From positions 1 through 64,000 of the forward strand of contig JAICQO010000005.1 in NCBI GenBank assembly GCA_025937835.1: a stretch of DNA of 64,000 nucleotides, given 5' to 3'. Under the pieces are notes generated by a model. That model was not told the DNA's origin. It was given only the letters and a program-made list of their open reading frames with translations, and did not search any database. Of this stretch, positions 34,756 to 43,231 are shown piece by piece; within the stretch, counting starts at the first letter, position 1, and each line of letters opens with the position of its first letter. Origin of the DNA: Polyangiaceae bacterium. Its GTDB lineage: Bacteria > Myxococcota_A > Polyangia > Polyangiales > Polyangiaceae. The translations under genes and the position numbers were made by a program.

Positions 34756-36627
34756 ATGAGTTCATTCCGCTCGGCTCTCGGCTCCAAGCTGGCAACGCGG
34801 CTGGCGTCCGGTCTCTCGTTTGGCGTGGTGGCGTGGGCGTGCAGTGGCACGGCGGACGAACCGGCGGACGGGGCTGGGGGCGCGACGTCGACCGGAGGCG
34901 CGAGCTCCGGCATCGCGGGGTCGACGGGTGGCCGCTCCGCGGGCTTGCCTTCGGGCGGCGCGGTTTCGTCGGCCACGGGAGGCCTGGGTTCGACTCCGCC
35001 TTCGGGTGGTCAACCTGCGGGCGGGGGCGCGAGCGGCGGGCAGAGCGCGAGCGCGAGCGGCGGGAGCTCGAGTAGCGGCGCCGCGACGGGCGGCAGCAAC
35101 GCGACGGCCTCGGGTGGCGGCACAGGCGAGGGGGCGAAGAGCAACGGTGGCGCTGGCGGAATGCCGGCAGCGGGGGGTGGCCAGAGCCAAACTGAGGGCG
35201 GCGCAGCGAGCGGCGGCTCGGGCGGCGGGAGCGTCGCGTTCGGCAAGCCCCAGGGCAAGATCCCGAATCAGGCCCAGCCCGAGTCGAGCACGAACCTGCC
35301 CAAGGATCAGTGGCAGAAGGGCATCGTCTCGCCGTCGATGCAGAAGGGGCATCAGATCAACCAATCCTCGGTGGTCAACGGCTATCTGCTCGTGGGCGGC
35401 AACGAGGAGTTCTGGTTTTACGACGTGTCGAACCCGGCCGCGCCGAAGCAGCTCTCCACGTTTGCGACGCCGAACCGCACCGGAGGCGAAGCGGAGACGC
35501 ACAGCATCTCGTACGCTCGCTACGGAGATAGCTTCTACGCCGTGACCATCGGCGGGCGCGGGATCGACACCTGGGACGTGACGGACCCGATGAAGCCGGC
35601 GCACCTGCAGCAGCTCAAGATCACCGGTGTCAACTACGGCGACTACACCGAGGCGGTCTGGGGGGTCGCGTGGCAGGGCCAGTACATCTACGTCGGCGCC
35701 ACCAACAACGGCATCAAGGTGGTCGACGCGGCCGATCCGCGCGCGCTGCGCATCGTGGCGGAGGTGCCGACCTCGCAGTATGGCGGTGTGAGCGCCGGGC
35801 CGGTGGACGCGATCGGTAATGTGCTGGTCGTGACGACTCCCAAAGAGAGCGGAGGGATCGCCACGCTCGACATCAGCAACCCGACCCAGCCGAAGCGGCT
35901 CGCGTCCTTCACCACGGACAAGGCGTACATCGGCGCGTTTTACCGGCGCTACGCGTTCTTGATCGGCGTCAAAGCCTGGGACGTGCTTTCGAACCCGAAG
36001 AGCATCGGCAGCGGCACGACGCCGATCGGAAGCCTGGGTACGGAAGGCGCCGAGTACATGGCGTTCAGCGACGACAACATGTTCCTCGGTCACCTGCGCA
36101 GCGAGATCAGCGGCACGCCCGGGGCGTCGAAGATCAGCGTGGAAGACCCGCGCAAGATGAAGGTGGTCAACCGGATCTGGGGCAGGCGAGACCTCGGCAA
36201 CCTGAATGACGACCAGTTCGTGTTCCCGTTCGGCAACCTGCTCGTGATCGGCGATGACCAGACGCCCTATCCGGGTTGGTTCATCGCTGTGCACCAGGCG
36301 GAGCCGGACACGAAGCCACCCGTGATCGACACGGTGATCCCGAACGACGCGTCGACCGCCAACGCGGTCACGTCGCGCATCGGCGTGTCGCTCTCCGACA
36401 ACATCGAGCTCGCGACCGTCAACGCCGCGTCCTTCATCGTTCGGCCGATGGGCGGCCAGCCGCTCACCGGCAAGTACGGCGTGCGCAACACGGTCATCAA
36501 TTTCGATCCCGACGAGGAGCTGAAGCCCGGCACCACCTACGAGGTGGTATTGCCCGCAGGTGGTATCGCCGATCTCGTGGGCAACACGCTGGCCGCCACC
36601 TGGCAGTCCACGTTCACGACGAACTGA
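34756..36627 (+). CDS. LVIVD-repeat beta-propeller lipoprotein with Ig-like domain
   Basis: The ATG at 34756 starts a lipoprotein signal with Cys29 (VVAWAC). A long Gly/Ser/Ala-rich linker (about 30-160) tethers a beta-propeller of LVIVD-type repeats (for example GRGIDTWDVTDPMKPAHL, GIKVVDAADPRALRIV, GGIATLDISNPTQPKRL). The last 100 residues resemble a bacterial Ig-like (Big_5) domain starting PPVIDTVIPNDAS. It is probably exposed on the outer membrane. It begins a same-strand cluster with the two cytochrome genes that follow. Confidence 0.8.
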   Translation: MSSFRSALGSKLATRLASGLSFGVVAWACSGTADEPADGAGGATSTGGASSGIAGSTGGRSAGLPSGGAVSSATGGLGSTPPSGGQPAGGGASGGQSASASGGSSSSGAATGGSNATASGGGTGEGAKSNGGAGGMPAAGGGQSQTEGGAASGGSGGGSVAFGKPQGKIPNQAQPESSTNLPKDQWQKGIVSPSMQKGHQINQSSVVNGYLLVGGNEEFWFYDVSNPAAPKQLSTFATPNRTGGEAETHSISYARYGDSFYAVTIGGRGIDTWDVTDPMKPAHLQQLKITGVNYGDYTEAVWGVAWQGQYIYVGATNNGIKVVDAADPRALRIVAEVPTSQYGGVSAGPVDAIGNVLVVTTPKESGGIATLDISNPTQPKRLASFTTDKAYIGAFYRRYAFLIGVKAWDVLSNPKSIGSGTTPIGSLGTEGAEYMAFSDDNMFLGHLRSEISGTPGASKISVEDPRKMKVVNRIWGRRDLGNLNDDQFVFPFGNLLVIGDDQTPYPGWFIAVHQAEPDTKPPVIDTVIPNDASTANAVTSRIGVSLSDNIELATVNAASFIVRPMGGQPLTGKYGVRNTVINFDPDEELKPGTTYEVVLPAGGIADLVGNTLAATWQSTFTTN

Positions 36628-36650
36628 CGCTCGTGAGCTTTCGTCTTTCG

Positions 36651-39206
36651 ATGGTCGGGTCCCGACTCGCGCTCGCGGCCTTGTTCCTCGCGTCCTCGCT
36701 GACGAGCGCGCCGGCGCTGGCGCTGGGGCTCGACGTGACGAACCCGGGGCCTTCGGTGGTCGGCGAGCCGCACGTTTTCACCGCGGTCGTGAGCGACGCG
36801 ATGGGCGAGGTGACGTTCGCCTGGAAGCTCGGAGAGAGCGAGCCACAACAGGCCGGACCCGCGCAGATGACGCACACGTTCACGGCGCCGGGGCACTACA
36901 GCATCACCGTAGAAGCGACGGATTCCATCGGTGACACCAGCAGCTGGTCGTTCCAGCACCTGGTCCACCACCCGCTCACCGAGAAGCGGCCGACCTCCTC
37001 GTCACCGATCATTTACGACAGCGTTCGAAAGCGCGTTTATTCCGCCAATCAGGACAACGACACCGTCACGTCGATCGACGCAGAGGCGCTCGTCAAGCTC
37101 GCGGAGCTTCCGGTGTACCGGCGCCCCGAGGCGCTCGCGCTCTCTCCGGAGGGCAAGCTCTGGGTGGTTCACCAGGACGACTACGCGGTCGCCGTCGTCG
37201 ATCCCGAGCGCTTCGAGATCGAGCGCGGGTTCCGGCTGCCGTACGCGTCGCAGCCAATCGGGCTCGCGTTCAGCCCCACGGGGGACGCGGCGTACGTGAG
37301 CCTGATGGCTCTCGGCAAGGTATTGAAGCTCGATCCGAGCAGCGGCGCCGTGACGGGCGAGTGCGAGGTCGGTCCGCGCCCGCGCGGAATCGCCGTCTCG
37401 CACGACGGCCGCGAGGTCTACGTGACACGCTTCATCTCCTCCGACACGGCGGGTGAAGTCGTGAAGCTCGACGCAGCAGCGATGCAGGTGGCCGCCCGCA
37501 TCGCGCTCCCGCTAGACACGCAGACGATGGACGGCCCGCAGGGTGCGCGAGGGCTTCCCAACTACCTCTTCTCCGTCGCGCTCACGCCCGACGGACGCCA
37601 GGCGTGGGTGCCTGGGAAGAAGGACAACGTGCTGCGCGGGCAGTTCCGCGACGGCCAGAAGCTGACGCACGACACCACCGTCAGGCCGCTAGTTTCGATT
37701 CTCGACGTGCAGGCCGCACAGGAGCTCATCGCCAGCCGCGTCGATCTCGACGACCGCAGCTTGCCCATTCACGTCGAGTTCTCTCCCTACGGGAACCTCG
37801 CGATCGTCACGCTGGCCGGCTCGAATCGCGTCGAGCTCCGCGACGTGAACCGACCGACCCAGGTCTTCTCGGCGATCGCCGACGCGGGGAGCTTTCCGCG
37901 CGCATCCGTGCTGACACCGAACTCGCGCCTGTTCGTTCAGGGCTCGCTGAGCCGCGACATCCTCGTGTACAACCTGTCCGCGGCGCTCGACTATTACGAC
38001 AAGGCGTCGCCCAGCCTGGTCGAGACGATCCCCGCGGTCGCAAGCGAAAAGCTGCCGGTGGACGTGCTGGCTGGAAAGAAAATCTTCAATAACTCCGAAG
38101 ATTTGCGAATGACCGCCGAGGGGTACATGAGCTGCGGCGTGTGCCATTTCGAAGGCACCGACGACGGCCGGGTTTGGGATTTCGGGGACCGCGGTGAGGG
38201 CCTGCGCAACACGATGGCCGTGCTCGGGCGTCGCGGGACGATGCACGGGCGGCTCGACTGGAGCGGCAACCTGGACGAGGTGCAGGACTTCGAGCATCAG
38301 ATCCGCACGCTGTTCCTCGGCCGCGGCTTCCTGCCGGAGGACGTGTTCGCGGCGGGCACGCGTTCCCAACCGTTCGGCGATCCGAAGGCGGGGCTCAGCA
38401 CCGAGCTCGACGCGCTGGCCGCGTACGTGGCGTCACTCGATCACGTCAATCCGAGCCCGCACAAGAACCCGGACGGCACGCTGACTGCGGCCGGTGTCGC
38501 GGGCCGGGTCGCCTTCGAGAAGCTGGGATGCGATTTCTGTCACGGCGGCGCTGAGCTGACCGACAGCGCGCGCGGCGTTCTGCACGACGTCGGGACGCTC
38601 GGTGCCGCGTCCGGCTCGAGAGCGAGTGAGCCGCTATTCGGGTTCGATACGCCGACTCTGCTCGGGATCTGGGAGACCGCGCCGTACCTCCACGACGGCT
38701 CTGCGGCCACGCTGCGCGACGTTCTGGTCGCCAAGAATCCGGACGGCCTTCACGGTTACGTGGCCGGGCTGTCCGCGCAGGAGCTCGACGATCTCGTCAC
38801 TTACTTGCTCCAGATCGACGGCGACCAGCCGCTGCGCCGCTTGCCGTTCGAGCCGCCTTTGCCCGCTGGCGGTGGACCGGGCGTGAGCGTCGCCGGCAAC
38901 GCCGGAGCTCCGGCTGGCACGAACGGAGGCGGTGCGAACGGAGGCAGCGCGAACGGAGGCAGCGCGAACGGAGGCAGCGCGAACGGCGGTGCGCCCGCTG
39001 GGAGCTCGGGAGGCCTGGTCGCCGGCGGACAACCGCCTGCCACGCCGGCGCCTGCGGCAGATTCCAGCGCGCGCTGCACGTTCCGCGTTCCCTCCCGCGC
39101 CGCGCGCGGTGCCGAGGCGCCCGCGATGCTGGCCTGCGTGCTCCTGGTAGTGGCGGCGGGTGCCCGGCGGCGTCGTTCGCGCCACGGCGAGGGGCGTGGC
39201 TCATGA
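36651..39206 (+). CDS. PKD/beta-propeller protein with di-haem peroxidase-like domain and MYXO-CTERM-like tail
   Basis: After a signal peptide (LALAALFLASSLTSAPALA) come a PKD-like domain (30-110), a YVTN-type seven-bladed propeller (about 115-470) and a MauG/CcpA-like cytochrome domain with haem sites CGVCH (495-499) and CDFCH (627-631). The peroxidase-family segment ETAPYLHDGSAATLRDVL is present. An Asn-Gly-Gly repeat tail precedes Cys, a hydrophobic stretch and RRRRSRH. It probably performs peroxide- or substrate-linked electron transfer at the surface. GTG 36633 is an alternative start. Its stop overlaps the next ATG by four bases. Confidence 0.8.
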   Translation: MVGSRLALAALFLASSLTSAPALALGLDVTNPGPSVVGEPHVFTAVVSDAMGEVTFAWKLGESEPQQAGPAQMTHTFTAPGHYSITVEATDSIGDTSSWSFQHLVHHPLTEKRPTSSSPIIYDSVRKRVYSANQDNDTVTSIDAEALVKLAELPVYRRPEALALSPEGKLWVVHQDDYAVAVVDPERFEIERGFRLPYASQPIGLAFSPTGDAAYVSLMALGKVLKLDPSSGAVTGECEVGPRPRGIAVSHDGREVYVTRFISSDTAGEVVKLDAAAMQVAARIALPLDTQTMDGPQGARGLPNYLFSVALTPDGRQAWVPGKKDNVLRGQFRDGQKLTHDTTVRPLVSILDVQAAQELIASRVDLDDRSLPIHVEFSPYGNLAIVTLAGSNRVELRDVNRPTQVFSAIADAGSFPRASVLTPNSRLFVQGSLSRDILVYNLSAALDYYDKASPSLVETIPAVASEKLPVDVLAGKKIFNNSEDLRMTAEGYMSCGVCHFEGTDDGRVWDFGDRGEGLRNTMAVLGRRGTMHGRLDWSGNLDEVQDFEHQIRTLFLGRGFLPEDVFAAGTRSQPFGDPKAGLSTELDALAAYVASLDHVNPSPHKNPDGTLTAAGVAGRVAFEKLGCDFCHGGAELTDSARGVLHDVGTLGAASGSRASEPLFGFDTPTLLGIWETAPYLHDGSAATLRDVLVAKNPDGLHGYVAGLSAQELDDLVTYLLQIDGDQPLRRLPFEPPLPAGGGPGVSVAGNAGAPAGTNGGGANGGSANGGSANGGSANGGAPAGSSGGLVAGGQPPATPAPAADSSARCTFRVPSRAARGAEAPAMLACVLLVVAAGARRRRSRHGEGRGS
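38921..38995 (+). repeat. Five tandem 15-bp units encoding Gly/Asn repeats
   Basis: Units GAACGGAGGC(A/G)G(C/T)GC run head to tail within the linker of the peroxidase-like protein; the middle three are identical. They encode Asn-Gly-Gly-Ser-Ala and are likely to vary in copy number between strains. Confidence 0.85.
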
Positions 39207-40699
39207 GGCTCCGCGGTGCGCTGTCAGATGCGGGATGGAGCGCGCGCTGCGCCGGTCTCGTAGTCGCGCTGTTGGCGAGCGCGACCGCCTGCGGACCGCA
39301 AGATCCGCAAGAGCCAGCACCGCCGGTGGACCCGGGTGTTCCAGCTCCGAGCGGCGGCGGCGCTGGTGGCGGCGGTGGTGCGCAGAACACGGACGCTTGG
39401 TCGAGCCTCCCGCCAAACCTGCACACGGACGTCGAGCTCGCACCGCTCGGCGTGCGCGAAGCGACTTACACGCGCGTTTGTGAGCGGGCGCGCGGCGACC
39501 AGTTCGCGAAAGCGCTGTGCGGGGTCGGAGGCCGCCCAGAGATTGCGGATCTCGCGGGGCTCCTTGCCCTCGCCGGCCTCGACCAGCAGCGCGCCTTCGC
39601 GCTGACCGGCAACTCGACCTCGCTGGTTTCGATGAGCGTTTCGGCGATCAACCCGCGGATCTTGGTGTTTCCGCGGGTCGCTGACGGCGCGCCGCGCCCG
39701 CAAAGCATGACCAGCGTCGGTTTCGTGCGCGGCGAGCAATTCGTGGAGATAGTCAGTCGCGACGAGCTCACGGACGACCTCAACTTTTACCTGCTCGCGT
39801 TCGAGCAACCGTGCAGCTACCAGCCGAACGGCTGCGACCTGGCGAGCCTGCTCACCGAAGAGATCGAGCACGGCTGGACCGCCTACAGCGTTTACGATCA
39901 AGACGATCTCGAACGCACCTCGTTCGATTGCCTGTCGTGCCACCAACCCGGCGGGCATGGCACGAAGCGCATGCTGCGCATGCAGGAGCTCTCGGCGCCC
40001 TGGATGCACTGGTTTCCACAGCGCTTCGTGCAACGGACGGAGTCGGATCGCGTGCTCGGCATGCAGTTCGCGGAGGCCCACCAGAGCGACGCTCAGTACG
40101 GTGGCGTGCCCATCGCCACCATCGCAAACGCCCTCGACGAGGGCAGCGGTGCTCAGCTCGAGGCGCTGCTGCGGGCGGAAGGCTTTGCCGAGCAACCGAA
40201 CCCCTTCGACGCGCACATCGCCGCCGAGATGAAGAGCGGAACCAGCGCGACCTGGCAATCGCGCTTCGACGCTCACTTGCGCGGTGAAGCCATCGCCGTG
40301 CCCTTCCCCTCGATCGACGTCACGGACGCGGCTCTGCGGACTGCTGCCGTCCAATCGTACCTGAACGTGGTCGAAGGCGGCGCGCCGCGCGAGAGCCTGC
40401 TCGACCTGCGCCGGGTCTTCTCTCCGGACGCGGAACGAAAGCTCAGCTTCGTTCCGCAGCCCGGAGCGGACGGGCGCACCGTTCTGCAGCAGATGTGCGC
40501 GCGCTGCCACGACGGGCGCGGCAACCCGGCGTTGCGGAAGAACCAATTCAACGTGCTGCGGCTCGCGGAAATGCCGCGCGCACTCAAAGATCTGGCGATC
40601 GAGCGCATCGATTCGGAGACCGCGGTCATGCCGCCGAAGCGCGCCGGTTACCTCCCGCCCGAGGCCAAAGAAGCCGCCAAATCGGAGCTACGGAAGTAG
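39203..40699 (+). CDS. Di-haem cytochrome c lipoprotein
   Basis: The 498-residue protein has lipobox ATAC (Cys30) after a signal peptide, then a Pro/Gly-rich linker. Haem sites are CLSCH (243-247) and CARCH (432-436). The second lies in a cytochrome c-like tail with ETAVMPPKRAGYLPPEA. No named family is recognised. The ATG overlaps the stop of the preceding di-haem gene (ATGA), so the two should be made together and may exchange electrons. Location is probably the outer membrane. Confidence 0.8.
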   Translation: MRLRGALSDAGWSARCAGLVVALLASATACGPQDPQEPAPPVDPGVPAPSGGGAGGGGGAQNTDAWSSLPPNLHTDVELAPLGVREATYTRVCERARGDQFAKALCGVGGRPEIADLAGLLALAGLDQQRAFALTGNSTSLVSMSVSAINPRILVFPRVADGAPRPQSMTSVGFVRGEQFVEIVSRDELTDDLNFYLLAFEQPCSYQPNGCDLASLLTEEIEHGWTAYSVYDQDDLERTSFDCLSCHQPGGHGTKRMLRMQELSAPWMHWFPQRFVQRTESDRVLGMQFAEAHQSDAQYGGVPIATIANALDEGSGAQLEALLRAEGFAEQPNPFDAHIAAEMKSGTSATWQSRFDAHLRGEAIAVPFPSIDVTDAALRTAAVQSYLNVVEGGAPRESLLDLRRVFSPDAERKLSFVPQPGADGRTVLQQMCARCHDGRGNPALRKNQFNVLRLAEMPRALKDLAIERIDSETAVMPPKRAGYLPPEAKEAAKSELRK

Positions 40700-40744: not shown

Positions 40745-41335
40745 TCACGGGGCTCGTTCGCAGATGTACGGCACCTTGAGCGAGCAAGCTCGGTCGTTCC
40801 AATCATCGGCGGGGGTGAGCGCGAGGCAACGCTCCGGATCCGGCGAAGTCGTGCTCTCGTTGTTCGGCTCTCCAGCTTTCCAGAAGCTGAACGCGCCGGG
40901 CTCCGTCATCCCGTCGGGGCCGCCCCGCCAGAAGACGGCGCCCGATGGCCAGCTCCAGACCAGCGCGTCGTCGCGCCTGCCGCCCAGCCACCAATCTCCG
41001 AGCATCACGCTCTCCGACCGAGCAGCGACGAAGTCGTTTTCCTCTCGAGACTCGAGCGCTGCGAGTGTGGCGTCCCGGCGCGCGCAGTCCGCGACGGCTT
41101 CTGCGTTGTCGAGCCGTTCGGGACACACCAGGTACTCGCGCGATGCCGACGTGAACAGCTCGCACGGCGAAAGGACGGGGCCGCCGCCCTCGCCGCCGCC
41201 GCCGACCGACACGCTGGGATCGAGCGTGGTCGTGCAAGAGAACGTGGCCAACGCAGACAGCGCGAGCGCGAACCGCACCACACCGAGCCCTGTCAGCGGG
41301 GTGAAGTCTGGGAAGCCGCGGGTCTCGAAGCGCAT
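40745..41335 (-). CDS. C-type-lectin-like lipoprotein
   Basis: The 196-residue protein has a lipobox at LATFSC and a C-type lectin fold: paired Cys, WWLGGRRDD, the WND-like DDWNDRACS and the ending PYICER. The EPN motif is present in AGEPNNES, so carbohydrate or calcium binding is possible. ATG 41335 is preferred to the upstream GTG at 41359. It is convergent with the cytochrome cluster and divergent from the sigma factor. Confidence 0.8.
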   Translation of the reverse strand: MRFETRGFPDFTPLTGLGVVRFALALSALATFSCTTTLDPSVSVGGGGEGGGPVLSPCELFTSASREYLVCPERLDNAEAVADCARRDATLAALESREENDFVAARSESVMLGDWWLGGRRDDALVWSWPSGAVFWRGGPDGMTEPGAFSFWKAGEPNNESTTSPDPERCLALTPADDWNDRACSLKVPYICERAP

Positions 41336-41436
41336 GCGCCGGGATCCGAGAGATGCCACACGACTCGGCAGGTGGACGCAAATAATCGCGTGGAAAAACC
41401 GGGCCGTCGAACCCCCTCGCCGGGAGTCCTGCTAAG

Positions 41437-42066
41437 GTGTCGGCCGTGCGGCGGACGCGCACTTCCACCGAGCCGCAGCCCGAGCAGCGGGTCGACGCAG
41501 CCCGGCTCTTGCTGGTGCCGCGTGAAGCGAGCGAGGCGCAGGTCGTTTACGAGCGAGTGGCGCCGGTCGTCAATCGCATGGTCTGGATTTACCTCGCGAC
41601 CGATCCCGAGCGCGACGACATTGCACAGGACATCTTCGTAGCCATCGCGCGCCGCCACGCCGCCGTACGGGACCCTTCGCGGCTCGAGGCCTGGGCCGCG
41701 AGCGTCGCATTCAACACCATCTGTCACGCCTTTCGCCGGCGCAAGTTCAGGCGTTGGTTCTCGCTCGAGGTCGTGCTCGAGAGCGAGCAACCCCGCTACG
41801 AGGCCGATCTCGAAGGGCGCGATCTCGTGGCCCGCGCTCAGCGCCTCCTCGAGAAGTTGCCGCTCGCACAGCGGATGCCGCTGACCCTCGAGCTCTTCAG
41901 CAGCTCGAGCCAGCCGGAAATCGCCCGGCTGTGCGGGTGCTCGGAGCGCACGTTGAGGCGGCGGCTGCACGCCGCGCGCGAGCGCTTCGCGCTCCTCGTC
42001 CAGCGCGATCCAGCGCTCGCTGGCCGGCTCGCGGACGGTTCGCCGGAGGCCCCAGTCGATGGCTGA
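41437..42066 (+). CDS. ECF-type RNA polymerase sigma factor
   Basis: The 209-residue protein has sigma region 2 (YLATDPERDDIAQDIFVAIA, the core-binding DD.AQ.. motif) and region 4 with an HTH (SQPEIARLCGCSERTLRRRL). It starts at GTG 41437. The stop overlaps the next ATG, which encodes a FecR-like membrane protein, the usual anti-sigma partner. Target promoters are not known. Confidence 0.9.
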   Translation: MSAVRRTRTSTEPQPEQRVDAARLLLVPREASEAQVVYERVAPVVNRMVWIYLATDPERDDIAQDIFVAIARRHAAVRDPSRLEAWAASVAFNTICHAFRRRKFRRWFSLEVVLESEQPRYEADLEGRDLVARAQRLLEKLPLAQRMPLTLELFSSSSQPEIARLCGCSERTLRRRLHAARERFALLVQRDPALAGRLADGSPEAPVDG

Positions 42067-43231
42067 CCTGGACGCTCTCGCGAAGGCGCTCCGAAAGGAG
42101 CTCGGCACCCCGCCGGAGGCGTGGCAGAAGGCGCAGCGTGAGCGCATGCGCGAGGTCCTCGCCGCGAAGCCCGAGCGCCCGCTGCTCGTGCGTCTCGCTC
42201 CGGTGTTCGCGCTTTCGCTCGTGGCCGCCAGCGTGCTGCTCTGGTTCGGCTTCTCGCGCCCGCACACCGACGGCGACCAAGCTTCGCTCGTTGCGAACGG
42301 CCTTGCCGCGCCGATCCGCCTCGAGGACGGCAGCAGCATCGTTCTCGCCAAGGGGGGGCGCGGTCGTCTCGTCAGCGAGGAGACCACGGTGCGTTTCGAG
42401 CTCGAAGCCGGCCGCGCCGATTTCGACGTCGTGCCGAACCAGAAGCGAAAGTGGACGATCACGGCGGGAAAGAACGTCGTGACGGTCATCGGCACGCGCT
42501 TCAGCGTCTCTTACGAGCCGTCCGGCACGTTCGAAGTCGACGTCGAACGCGGCGTCGTCTCCGTACGGGTGCCGGAGCGGCGGGCGAGCGTCGAGCTCAA
42601 GGCGGGCGACCATCTGCGCGGCGCTCCGGGACGGATGGAGGTCGTTCAAGGAGCGCCCAGCGCGCCCGAGCCGGCAGCAGCGGCGAGTGTCCCGGGCGAG
42701 GCGCCCGAACCCACGCCGGAGGCGATTGGTTCCGCGGCTCCGGCCGCCCCTGGTTCGAGCGCGCCGCCGAAATCTCCCGAGTGGCGCGACCGTTATCGAG
42801 ACGGCAAGTACGCCGAGGCGCTCGCGCTGCTCCGGGCGGATCGCGAAGCCGAGCGCCTCGAGAGCCTCGGGCCGCGCCTGCTCGCAGACATCGCGGACGT
42901 GGCTCGTCTGGGCGGCGATCTCAAGCTGGCCGCCCGTGCCCTCGCCGTGCTGCTCCGGCAGTATCCTGGGGCCCGCGAGGCGCGCGACGCTCAGTTCCTG
43001 CTCGGGCGCGTGCACGCGCTGTCCGGTGATCGCGCCTCGGCCATCCGGGCTTTCGAGGCCTACCTCGAGACCGGGAGCTCGAGGCGATACGCGAATGAAG
43101 CGGCTGGCCGCCTGATGGAGCTTTACACCGAGCGCGGCGACACCGAGCGGGCCCGGGCGATGGCGCAGCGCTACCTTGCGAGCGCGCCGAACGGTCCCTA
43201 TCGCCGACTGGCGCACTCTCTGATTCGATAA
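42059..43231 (+). CDS. FecR-domain membrane protein with TPR region
   Basis: The 390-residue protein has a short cytoplasmic segment, one membrane helix (46-65) and a periplasmic FecR domain (about 75-200, IGTRFSVSYEPSGTFEVDVE). After a Pro/Ala linker come TPR-like repeats (245-390). In FecR systems the cytoplasmic part binds the sigma factor and the periplasmic part receives the signal. The gene overlaps the sigma gene by eight bases. Confidence 0.88.
   Translation: MADLDALAKALRKELGTPPEAWQKAQRERMREVLAAKPERPLLVRLAPVFALSLVAASVLLWFGFSRPHTDGDQASLVANGLAAPIRLEDGSSIVLAKGGRGRLVSEETTVRFELEAGRADFDVVPNQKRKWTITAGKNVVTVIGTRFSVSYEPSGTFEVDVERGVVSVRVPERRASVELKAGDHLRGAPGRMEVVQGAPSAPEPAAAASVPGEAPEPTPEAIGSAAPAAPGSSAPPKSPEWRDRYRDGKYAEALALLRADREAERLESLGPRLLADIADVARLGGDLKLAARALAVLLRQYPGAREARDAQFLLGRVHALSGDRASAIRAFEAYLETGSSRRYANEAAGRLMELYTERGDTERARAMAQRYLASAPNGPYRRLAHSLIR

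Follow-up and report, generated by a model that had tools for sequence, protein, structure and literature searches.

A conserved LVIVD-PKD-YVTN-di-haem unit related to hydrazine synthase beta-gamma in a Polyangiaceae bacterium

The window analysed here comprises positions 1 to 64,000 of contig JAICQO010000005.1 from a Polyangiaceae bacterium (assembly GCA_025937835.1). Three genes lie in a row on its forward strand, and are called A, B and C in the text. The original prediction, made from the letters of the DNA, described three adjacent genes for exported proteins with two propellers, four haems and a four-base coupling of the last two genes, and the gene coordinates and domains confirm this. 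An LVIVD propeller is found in A and a YVTN propeller in B. Two CXXCH motifs are present in B, two in C and none in A, giving four haems in the set. The overlap of B and C is four bases long, ATGA, and an ATGA or GTGA overlap recurs in L001-L004, which are all the other loci that carry C. The features are as follows.

34756..36627, forward strand: gene A, 623 aa, a probable lipoprotein with a Ser/Gly-rich linker, an LVIVD beta-propeller and a C-terminal Ig-like Big_5 domain, without haem
36651..39206, forward strand: gene B, 851 aa from its ATG, with a signal peptide, a PKD domain, a seven-bladed YVTN propeller, a two-haem domain, a Gly-rich linker and a tail
36741..36953, forward strand: PKD domain of B, residues 31-101 (approximate); PF00801 at 1.4e-10 over query residues 32-101, in a protein started one codon earlier
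36996..37970, forward strand: YVTN propeller of B, residues about 116-440; nearest solved structure the beta subunit of hydrazine synthase (5c2v_B)
38034..38822, forward strand: di-haem domain of B, residues about 462-724, with haem 1 at C495-H499, Trp537, an acidic/Gln patch at D542-E548, haem 2 at C627-H631 and a likely distal His701
39203..40699, forward strand: gene C, 498 aa, a two-haem lipoprotein that overlaps B by ATGA, with CXXCH at residues 243-247 and 432-436 and candidate distal ligands H269 and M476

Relatives of the locus were collected in one scan of GTDB species genomes with B alone as the query, and 80 of the 126 confirmed loci were kept. Thirty of these (L049-L080 minus L065 and L077), with titles that are nearly all Planctomycetota, align to B only past the PKD domain. 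The remaining 50 loci form the first group, in which 44 have at least 1 kb of upstream DNA and 45 at least 1.6 kb downstream. The locus titles, which can be wrong for metagenome-assembled genomes, include Polyangiaceae, Sorangium, Polyangium, Splendidivirga, Planctomycetota, Variovorax, Porticoccus, Fibrobacteres and Verrucomicrobia. Fusions of a propeller to a di-haem domain, which had been thought unusual, are widespread. Some related haem domain is present at E <= 1e-3 in 225 of 282 Myxococcota genomes, and the B family proper (E < 1e-36, read by eye) in 58 of them. The window's own genome contains one full copy of B.

A and B are one conserved unit. A stands directly upstream of B, or in frame with it, in 43 of the 44 first-group loci with sufficient upstream DNA. 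Forty of these came from tblastn with the A of the window as query; the matches to A are weak and partial in the last three (L028, L030 and L034) and in L022. The lone locus without A before B is L041 (Sphaerotilus natans). A and B are encoded on one open frame in 12 of the 43 loci. Among the thirty loci that align only past the PKD domain, none of the 28 with at least 1 kb upstream has A before B. Pfam recognizes LVIVD (PF08309; 36.4 bits, 3.3e-09, cut-off 20.2) and Big_5 (3e-21) in A; a six-frame search of the genome with the PF08309 model gave zero matches, despite the A protein scoring above the cut-off. Within the A family, Trp273, Trp306 and several Tyr are near-invariant, and the alignment contains no conserved Cys. 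Structure prediction of the natural A-B single chain of L012 gave one confident body of 1151 aa (pLDDT 90.6, pTM 0.90), for which large multi-propeller eukaryotic proteins dominate the Foldseek results. No further conserved neighbours beyond A-B were seen in an all-against-all comparison of open reading frames (ORFs), among the top 25 components listed; the other components that span many loci were mixed, lay on other frames over A-B or came from near relatives.

The nearest characterised relative of B is the beta-gamma part of hydrazine synthase (HZS), with which anammox bacteria produce hydrazine, and not MauG/CcpA as the original label had it. The best NCBIfam model for B is the fused HZS beta-gamma subunit (NF052342), at 80.9 bits and 6e-23 but far under the cut-off of 1250; NF052341 gives 74.2 bits, under its cut-off of 625. 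When compared with PDB sequences, the haem domain of B matches HZS gamma at 6.2e-22, and the best cytochrome c peroxidase (CcpA) at 2.1e-11. In B, Pfam finds the PKD domain, RoxA-like_Cyt-c (PF21419; 34.4 bits against a cut-off of 26.7) and, weakly, propeller models and CCP_MauG. The structure of B was predicted from 46 family members (pLDDT 91.6, pTM 0.93). The top structural match in the PDB of the predicted propeller (model residues 93-422, corresponding to B residues 118-447) is HZS beta, with Z 38.2 and a root-mean-square deviation of 1.9 A over 304 residues at 22% identity. The archaeal YVTN protein ranks below it (Z 35.8), and Foldseek also puts HZS beta first. On sequence alone the archaeal YVTN protein 1l0q is closer to this propeller than HZS beta. 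The structural matches cover mainly the propeller and HZS gamma is not among the best 50 listed, so the likeness of the haem domain to HZS gamma rests on sequence. The closest solved relatives of the propeller (by structure) and of the haem domain (by sequence) are both HZS, in beta-gamma order. A general propeller likeness alone would not be remarkable; this joint match is. A tree of haem domains (82 tips, rooted on peroxidases) placed HZS gamma on a long branch without support (0.37), and was not used as evidence.

Conservation at the haem sites was counted in an alignment of 46 B proteins. Both CXXCH motifs, at residues 495-499 and 627-631, are invariant (46/46), and the haem sites are thus kept in homologues, the loss of which had been named as grounds for rejecting the original prediction. 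This invariance and the near-universal A-B linkage speak against a chance arrangement. D542, E543, Q545 and D546 near haem 1 are likewise each present in all 46 proteins and Trp537 in 45. The adjoining position 536 is His in 41, and Asp in the window's own B. His701 (38/46) aligns with HZS gamma His332, the second His ligand of haem gamma II. In HZS gamma, His144, Cys165 and Asp168 lie near haem I, with Cys165 forming a third bond to this haem and Asp168 placed in the distal pocket, and His229 and His332 are the ligands of haem II (numbering of PMC12758564 and PMC12607021, in the sections of these papers used here). His144 is absent from the B family, and Trp537 occupies that stretch, as in peroxidases. 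The positions of Cys165 and Asp168 are L556 and L561 in the window's B, with no Cys or Asp there across the family. Other HZS beta-gamma homologues are described as having Trp in place of gamma His144, and Trp as important for catalysis in cytochrome c peroxidase (CCP) and MauG (PMC12758564, same sections). The view that Trp537 is the exact counterpart of His144 rests on that description of other homologues; in the phmmer alignment W537 is three columns off H144, under which the window's L535 falls. As judged from the alignments, the HZS-specific active-site residues (His144, Cys165 and Asp168) are lost in B, and the inter-haem Trp and an HZS-type His ligand are retained. The active-site residues of B look closer to those of a peroxidase than to those of HZS, and hhalign matches B to the peroxidase profile at 99.3%.

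The lipid anchors of the original prediction are better founded in the relatives than in the window. The lipoboxes of A and C in the window are non-canonical (AWAC, read by eye, and ATAC), and better ones are found in the A of L001 (LAAC) and the C of L002 (LSGC) and L004 (LAAC). The tail of the window's B consists of a Cys, a hydrophobic stretch and RRRR, and resembles by eye the sorting tags of its relatives. Ten B tails, picked by eye from a larger listing, were scanned. The MYXO-CTERM model (TIGR03901, cut-off 20) gives 22.5 and 29.6 bits for L012 and L035, scores under the cut-off for L001, L002 and L009, and no match for L005 and L011. The tail of L007 is of type A of the type IX secretion system (T9SS; 40.6 bits, cut-off 23), and that of L022 has a weak GlyGly-CTERM-type match. 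The occurrence of unrelated tags (MYXO-CTERM and T9SS) on B in different phyla supports a surface location. Many B relatives stop right after the haem domain. The Variovorax chain of L013 has added ricin-type lectin and laminin-G domains, and the Verrucomicrobia chain of L034 added laminin-G and other domains. Surface anchoring of B is supported, and the face of the membrane concerned is presumably the outer one.

C is probably an electron carrier with one His/His and one His/Met haem. In 17 aligned members of its family the two CXXCH motifs, H269, M476 (in MPP) and four more Cys are invariant. The Pfam match of C is to Cytochrome_CBB3, a class-I cytochrome; no close solved structure was found, and the scans made brought up neither a Pfam nor an NCBIfam model specific to the family. 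Co-conservation of the whole trio had been preset as a test, and it holds for A-B and not for C, which follows B in only four of the 80 loci (L001-L004, the L003 copy being incomplete), all Sorangium- or Polyangiaceae-like. In terms of the first group, C is present in three of the 45 loci with enough downstream DNA, plus L003. The contig of L003 is titled Nocardioidaceae, yet it carries a Sorangium-like A-B-C set, and a binning error is most likely. Relatives of C give matches in seven of the 282 Myxococcota genomes, the window's included. The family (L104-L114 and the window's C) is amplified in some Myxococcota, as several paralogues and up to six matches per genome. A Thiol_cytolysin gene (PF01289, 8.2e-47; L104:9459-11114, forward strand) lies just 3' of one C paralogue, in a genome of the same family as the window's.

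The explanation that we favour, with a probability that we would put slightly below one half, is that A-B is a di-haem oxidoreductase of the peroxidase type, built on an HZS beta-gamma scaffold, anchored at the surface and supplied by C in this lineage. A and B would be two halves of one cell-surface enzyme, in which the beta-gamma-type scaffold is combined with a second, LVIVD-type propeller. Electrons would enter at the C-terminal haem of B, predicted to be bis-His (His631/His701), and reach, by way of Trp537, an N-terminal haem (His499) that would be open and lies close to Gln545 and the invariant acidic residues. The oxidant reduced at this haem would be a small one, with hydrogen peroxide the most likely. 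The wiring of this path is drawn from the descriptions of HZS gamma and CCP, and its least certain step is the choice of peroxide as substrate. C, a co-translated lipoprotein, would be the electron donor or wire in this lineage. A may bind or cap the haem side or serve as a docking propeller and, with lipid and C-terminal anchors, would keep the enzyme on the outer face of the outer membrane.

Several findings weigh against this explanation. In bacterial di-haem CCPs the C-terminal haem has a Met ligand. The family alignment of B has no conserved Met at residues 690-702, His701 being conserved instead; the Met of 1eb7, which we take to be the peroxidase ligand, was positioned by sequence alignment. 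The distal Gln/Glu residues of bacterial cytochrome c peroxidases gave no confident alignment with the acidic patch of B. The MYXO-CTERM model does not match the tail of the window's B, and the MYXO-CTERM-like anchor first claimed for the set is borne out in L012 and L035 rather than in the window. In the 11 stretches inspected no C paralogue lies beside A or B. A second multi-haem ORF is lacking near the locus in most relatives, and a dedicated donor would therefore not be general. C is rejected as a universal partner of A-B, given its presence in four of 80 loci and, in the stretches inspected, paralogues that lie apart from A and B.

The set had originally been suggested to serve in surface electron transfer or oxidative modification, and either is possible. 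In a scheme like that of MauG or MbnH, which act on a partner protein, a high-valent state made with peroxide would oxidise a side chain of the partner, perhaps A or another surface protein. B retains the inter-haem Trp, A, in its linkage to B, resembles a substrate in cis and has its near-invariant Trp and Tyr residues, and the MbnH and MauG models do match B weakly. We nevertheless consider this unlikely, as the scores are far under the cut-offs (24.8 against 443.85 for MauG, TIGR03791, and 36.6 against 362.85 for MbnH), the likely ligand of the second haem is His as in HZS gamma and not the Tyr of MauG, and the A family is without conserved Cys. If B instead retained HZS-like nitrogen chemistry, haem 1 would reduce NO or another N-oxide and A would take the place of HZS alpha. 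This would suit the closest characterised relatives of B being HZS beta and gamma, the match of its haem II His to gamma His332, the nearly constant presence of a non-B propeller partner and the occurrence of one HZS_alpha-domain gene elsewhere in the window's genome. The failure of B to conserve the three gamma residues makes it very improbable. Furthermore, A is haem-free and unrelated to the HZS-alpha-like protein of the genome (hhalign probability 0.4%), and over the 282 Myxococcota genomes, 50 are positive for HZS alpha (PF18582) and 58 for B, with an overlap of 15 (odds ratio 1.9, one-sided Fisher p = 0.055).

The strong conservation around haem 1 of B suggests catalysis, and this argues against an extracellular electron conduit, in which B and C would merely relay electrons over the surface to minerals, to a soluble acceptor or to other cells. 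Such a conduit would suit the succession of four haems in probable surface proteins and the resemblance of C to an electron carrier, but C is missing from 42 of the 45 relatives with enough downstream DNA, and we regard the idea as quite unlikely. An oxygenase like RoxA or RoxB, cleaving an extracellular polymer or lipid, would account for the PF21419 match above the cut-off and for the ricin-type lectin and laminin-G domains of L013 and the laminin-G of L034, which would target the polymer. The PF21419 match, however, covers only about 31 residues, a motif common to HZS gamma and peroxidases in the sequence alignments, and the NCBIfam models for RoxA, RoxB and RoxC give 15.7-23.8 bits against cut-offs of 900-1000. 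There is little chance that B is such an enzyme.

Compared with known systems, the bacterial di-haem CCPs (CcpA 3o5c, 1iqc, 1eb7) share with B the two CXXCH motifs, a related profile and the inter-haem Trp, but they have no propeller and are small, soluble, periplasmic proteins. MauG and MbnH are of the same superfamily, although B falls far below their family cut-offs, and to our knowledge they have no propeller on the same chain. HZS beta-gamma, which is fused in Ca. Scalindua (PDB 5c2v chains B and C), has a seven-bladed propeller followed by a two-haem domain as in B; B differs in its extra PKD domain and surface tail. The partner of the HZS subunits is the haem-bearing HZS alpha, whereas that of B is the LVIVD protein A. 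HZS beta-gamma-like fused proteins are reported to be highly prevalent in environmental bacteria (Hagglund et al. 2025, PMC12758564). In the sections of that paper used here these proteins are like B in the fused propeller and di-haem domains and the Trp for gamma His144, and unlike it in having HZS-alpha-like and FG-GAP proteins as co-located partners. None of the words myxococc-, sorangium, polyangi-, PKD and LVIVD occurs in the paper's main text.

A link of HZS alpha to B showed no clear association, given the co-occurrence value, the separate contigs and the lack of relationship to A. No PF18582 match lies beside B; the genome has a single match, on contig C70, and the window is on C22. 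The C70 gene (L135:2389-4767, reverse strand) is lipoprotein-like by eye and has two CXXCH motifs, and is followed by what appears by eye to be a HEAT-type repeat protein. No two-haem beta-gamma-like gene was seen by eye on this 7.2 kb contig. HZS_alpha-domain matches are greatly expanded, numbering 28, in the genome (G311) of L062, a locus of planctomycete type. Beside the A-B-C genes of the window lies a C-type-lectin gene (40745-41359, reverse strand), and after it a gene for an extracytoplasmic function (ECF) sigma factor overlaps a FecR/tetratricopeptide repeat gene (41437-43231, forward strand).

HZS was long held to be without relatives until distant fused beta-gamma relatives were traced in 2025 (PMC12758564, in the sections used here). 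The prevalence of such fused proteins is already known; no description of the LVIVD-PKD-YVTN-di-haem unit, of its fusions or of its surface tags was found in the open-licence literature searched. A wider proposal, which we consider doubtful, is that A-B represents an extracellular class of enzymes on the HZS scaffold, widespread and so far undescribed, in which A is a haem-free counterpart of HZS alpha and the peroxidase-like Trp site of B is the state of the HZS gamma site before its recruitment to hydroxylamine production. The A-B unit is a relative of HZS outside the anammox bacteria, with Sorangium, Polyangium, Variovorax and Porticoccus among its titles, and has a near-constant haem-free propeller partner and surface tags. 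Some of its hosts are cultured, which makes expression and assay feasible and offers a route to the role of the HZS beta-gamma scaffold outside anammox and to the change of its active site.

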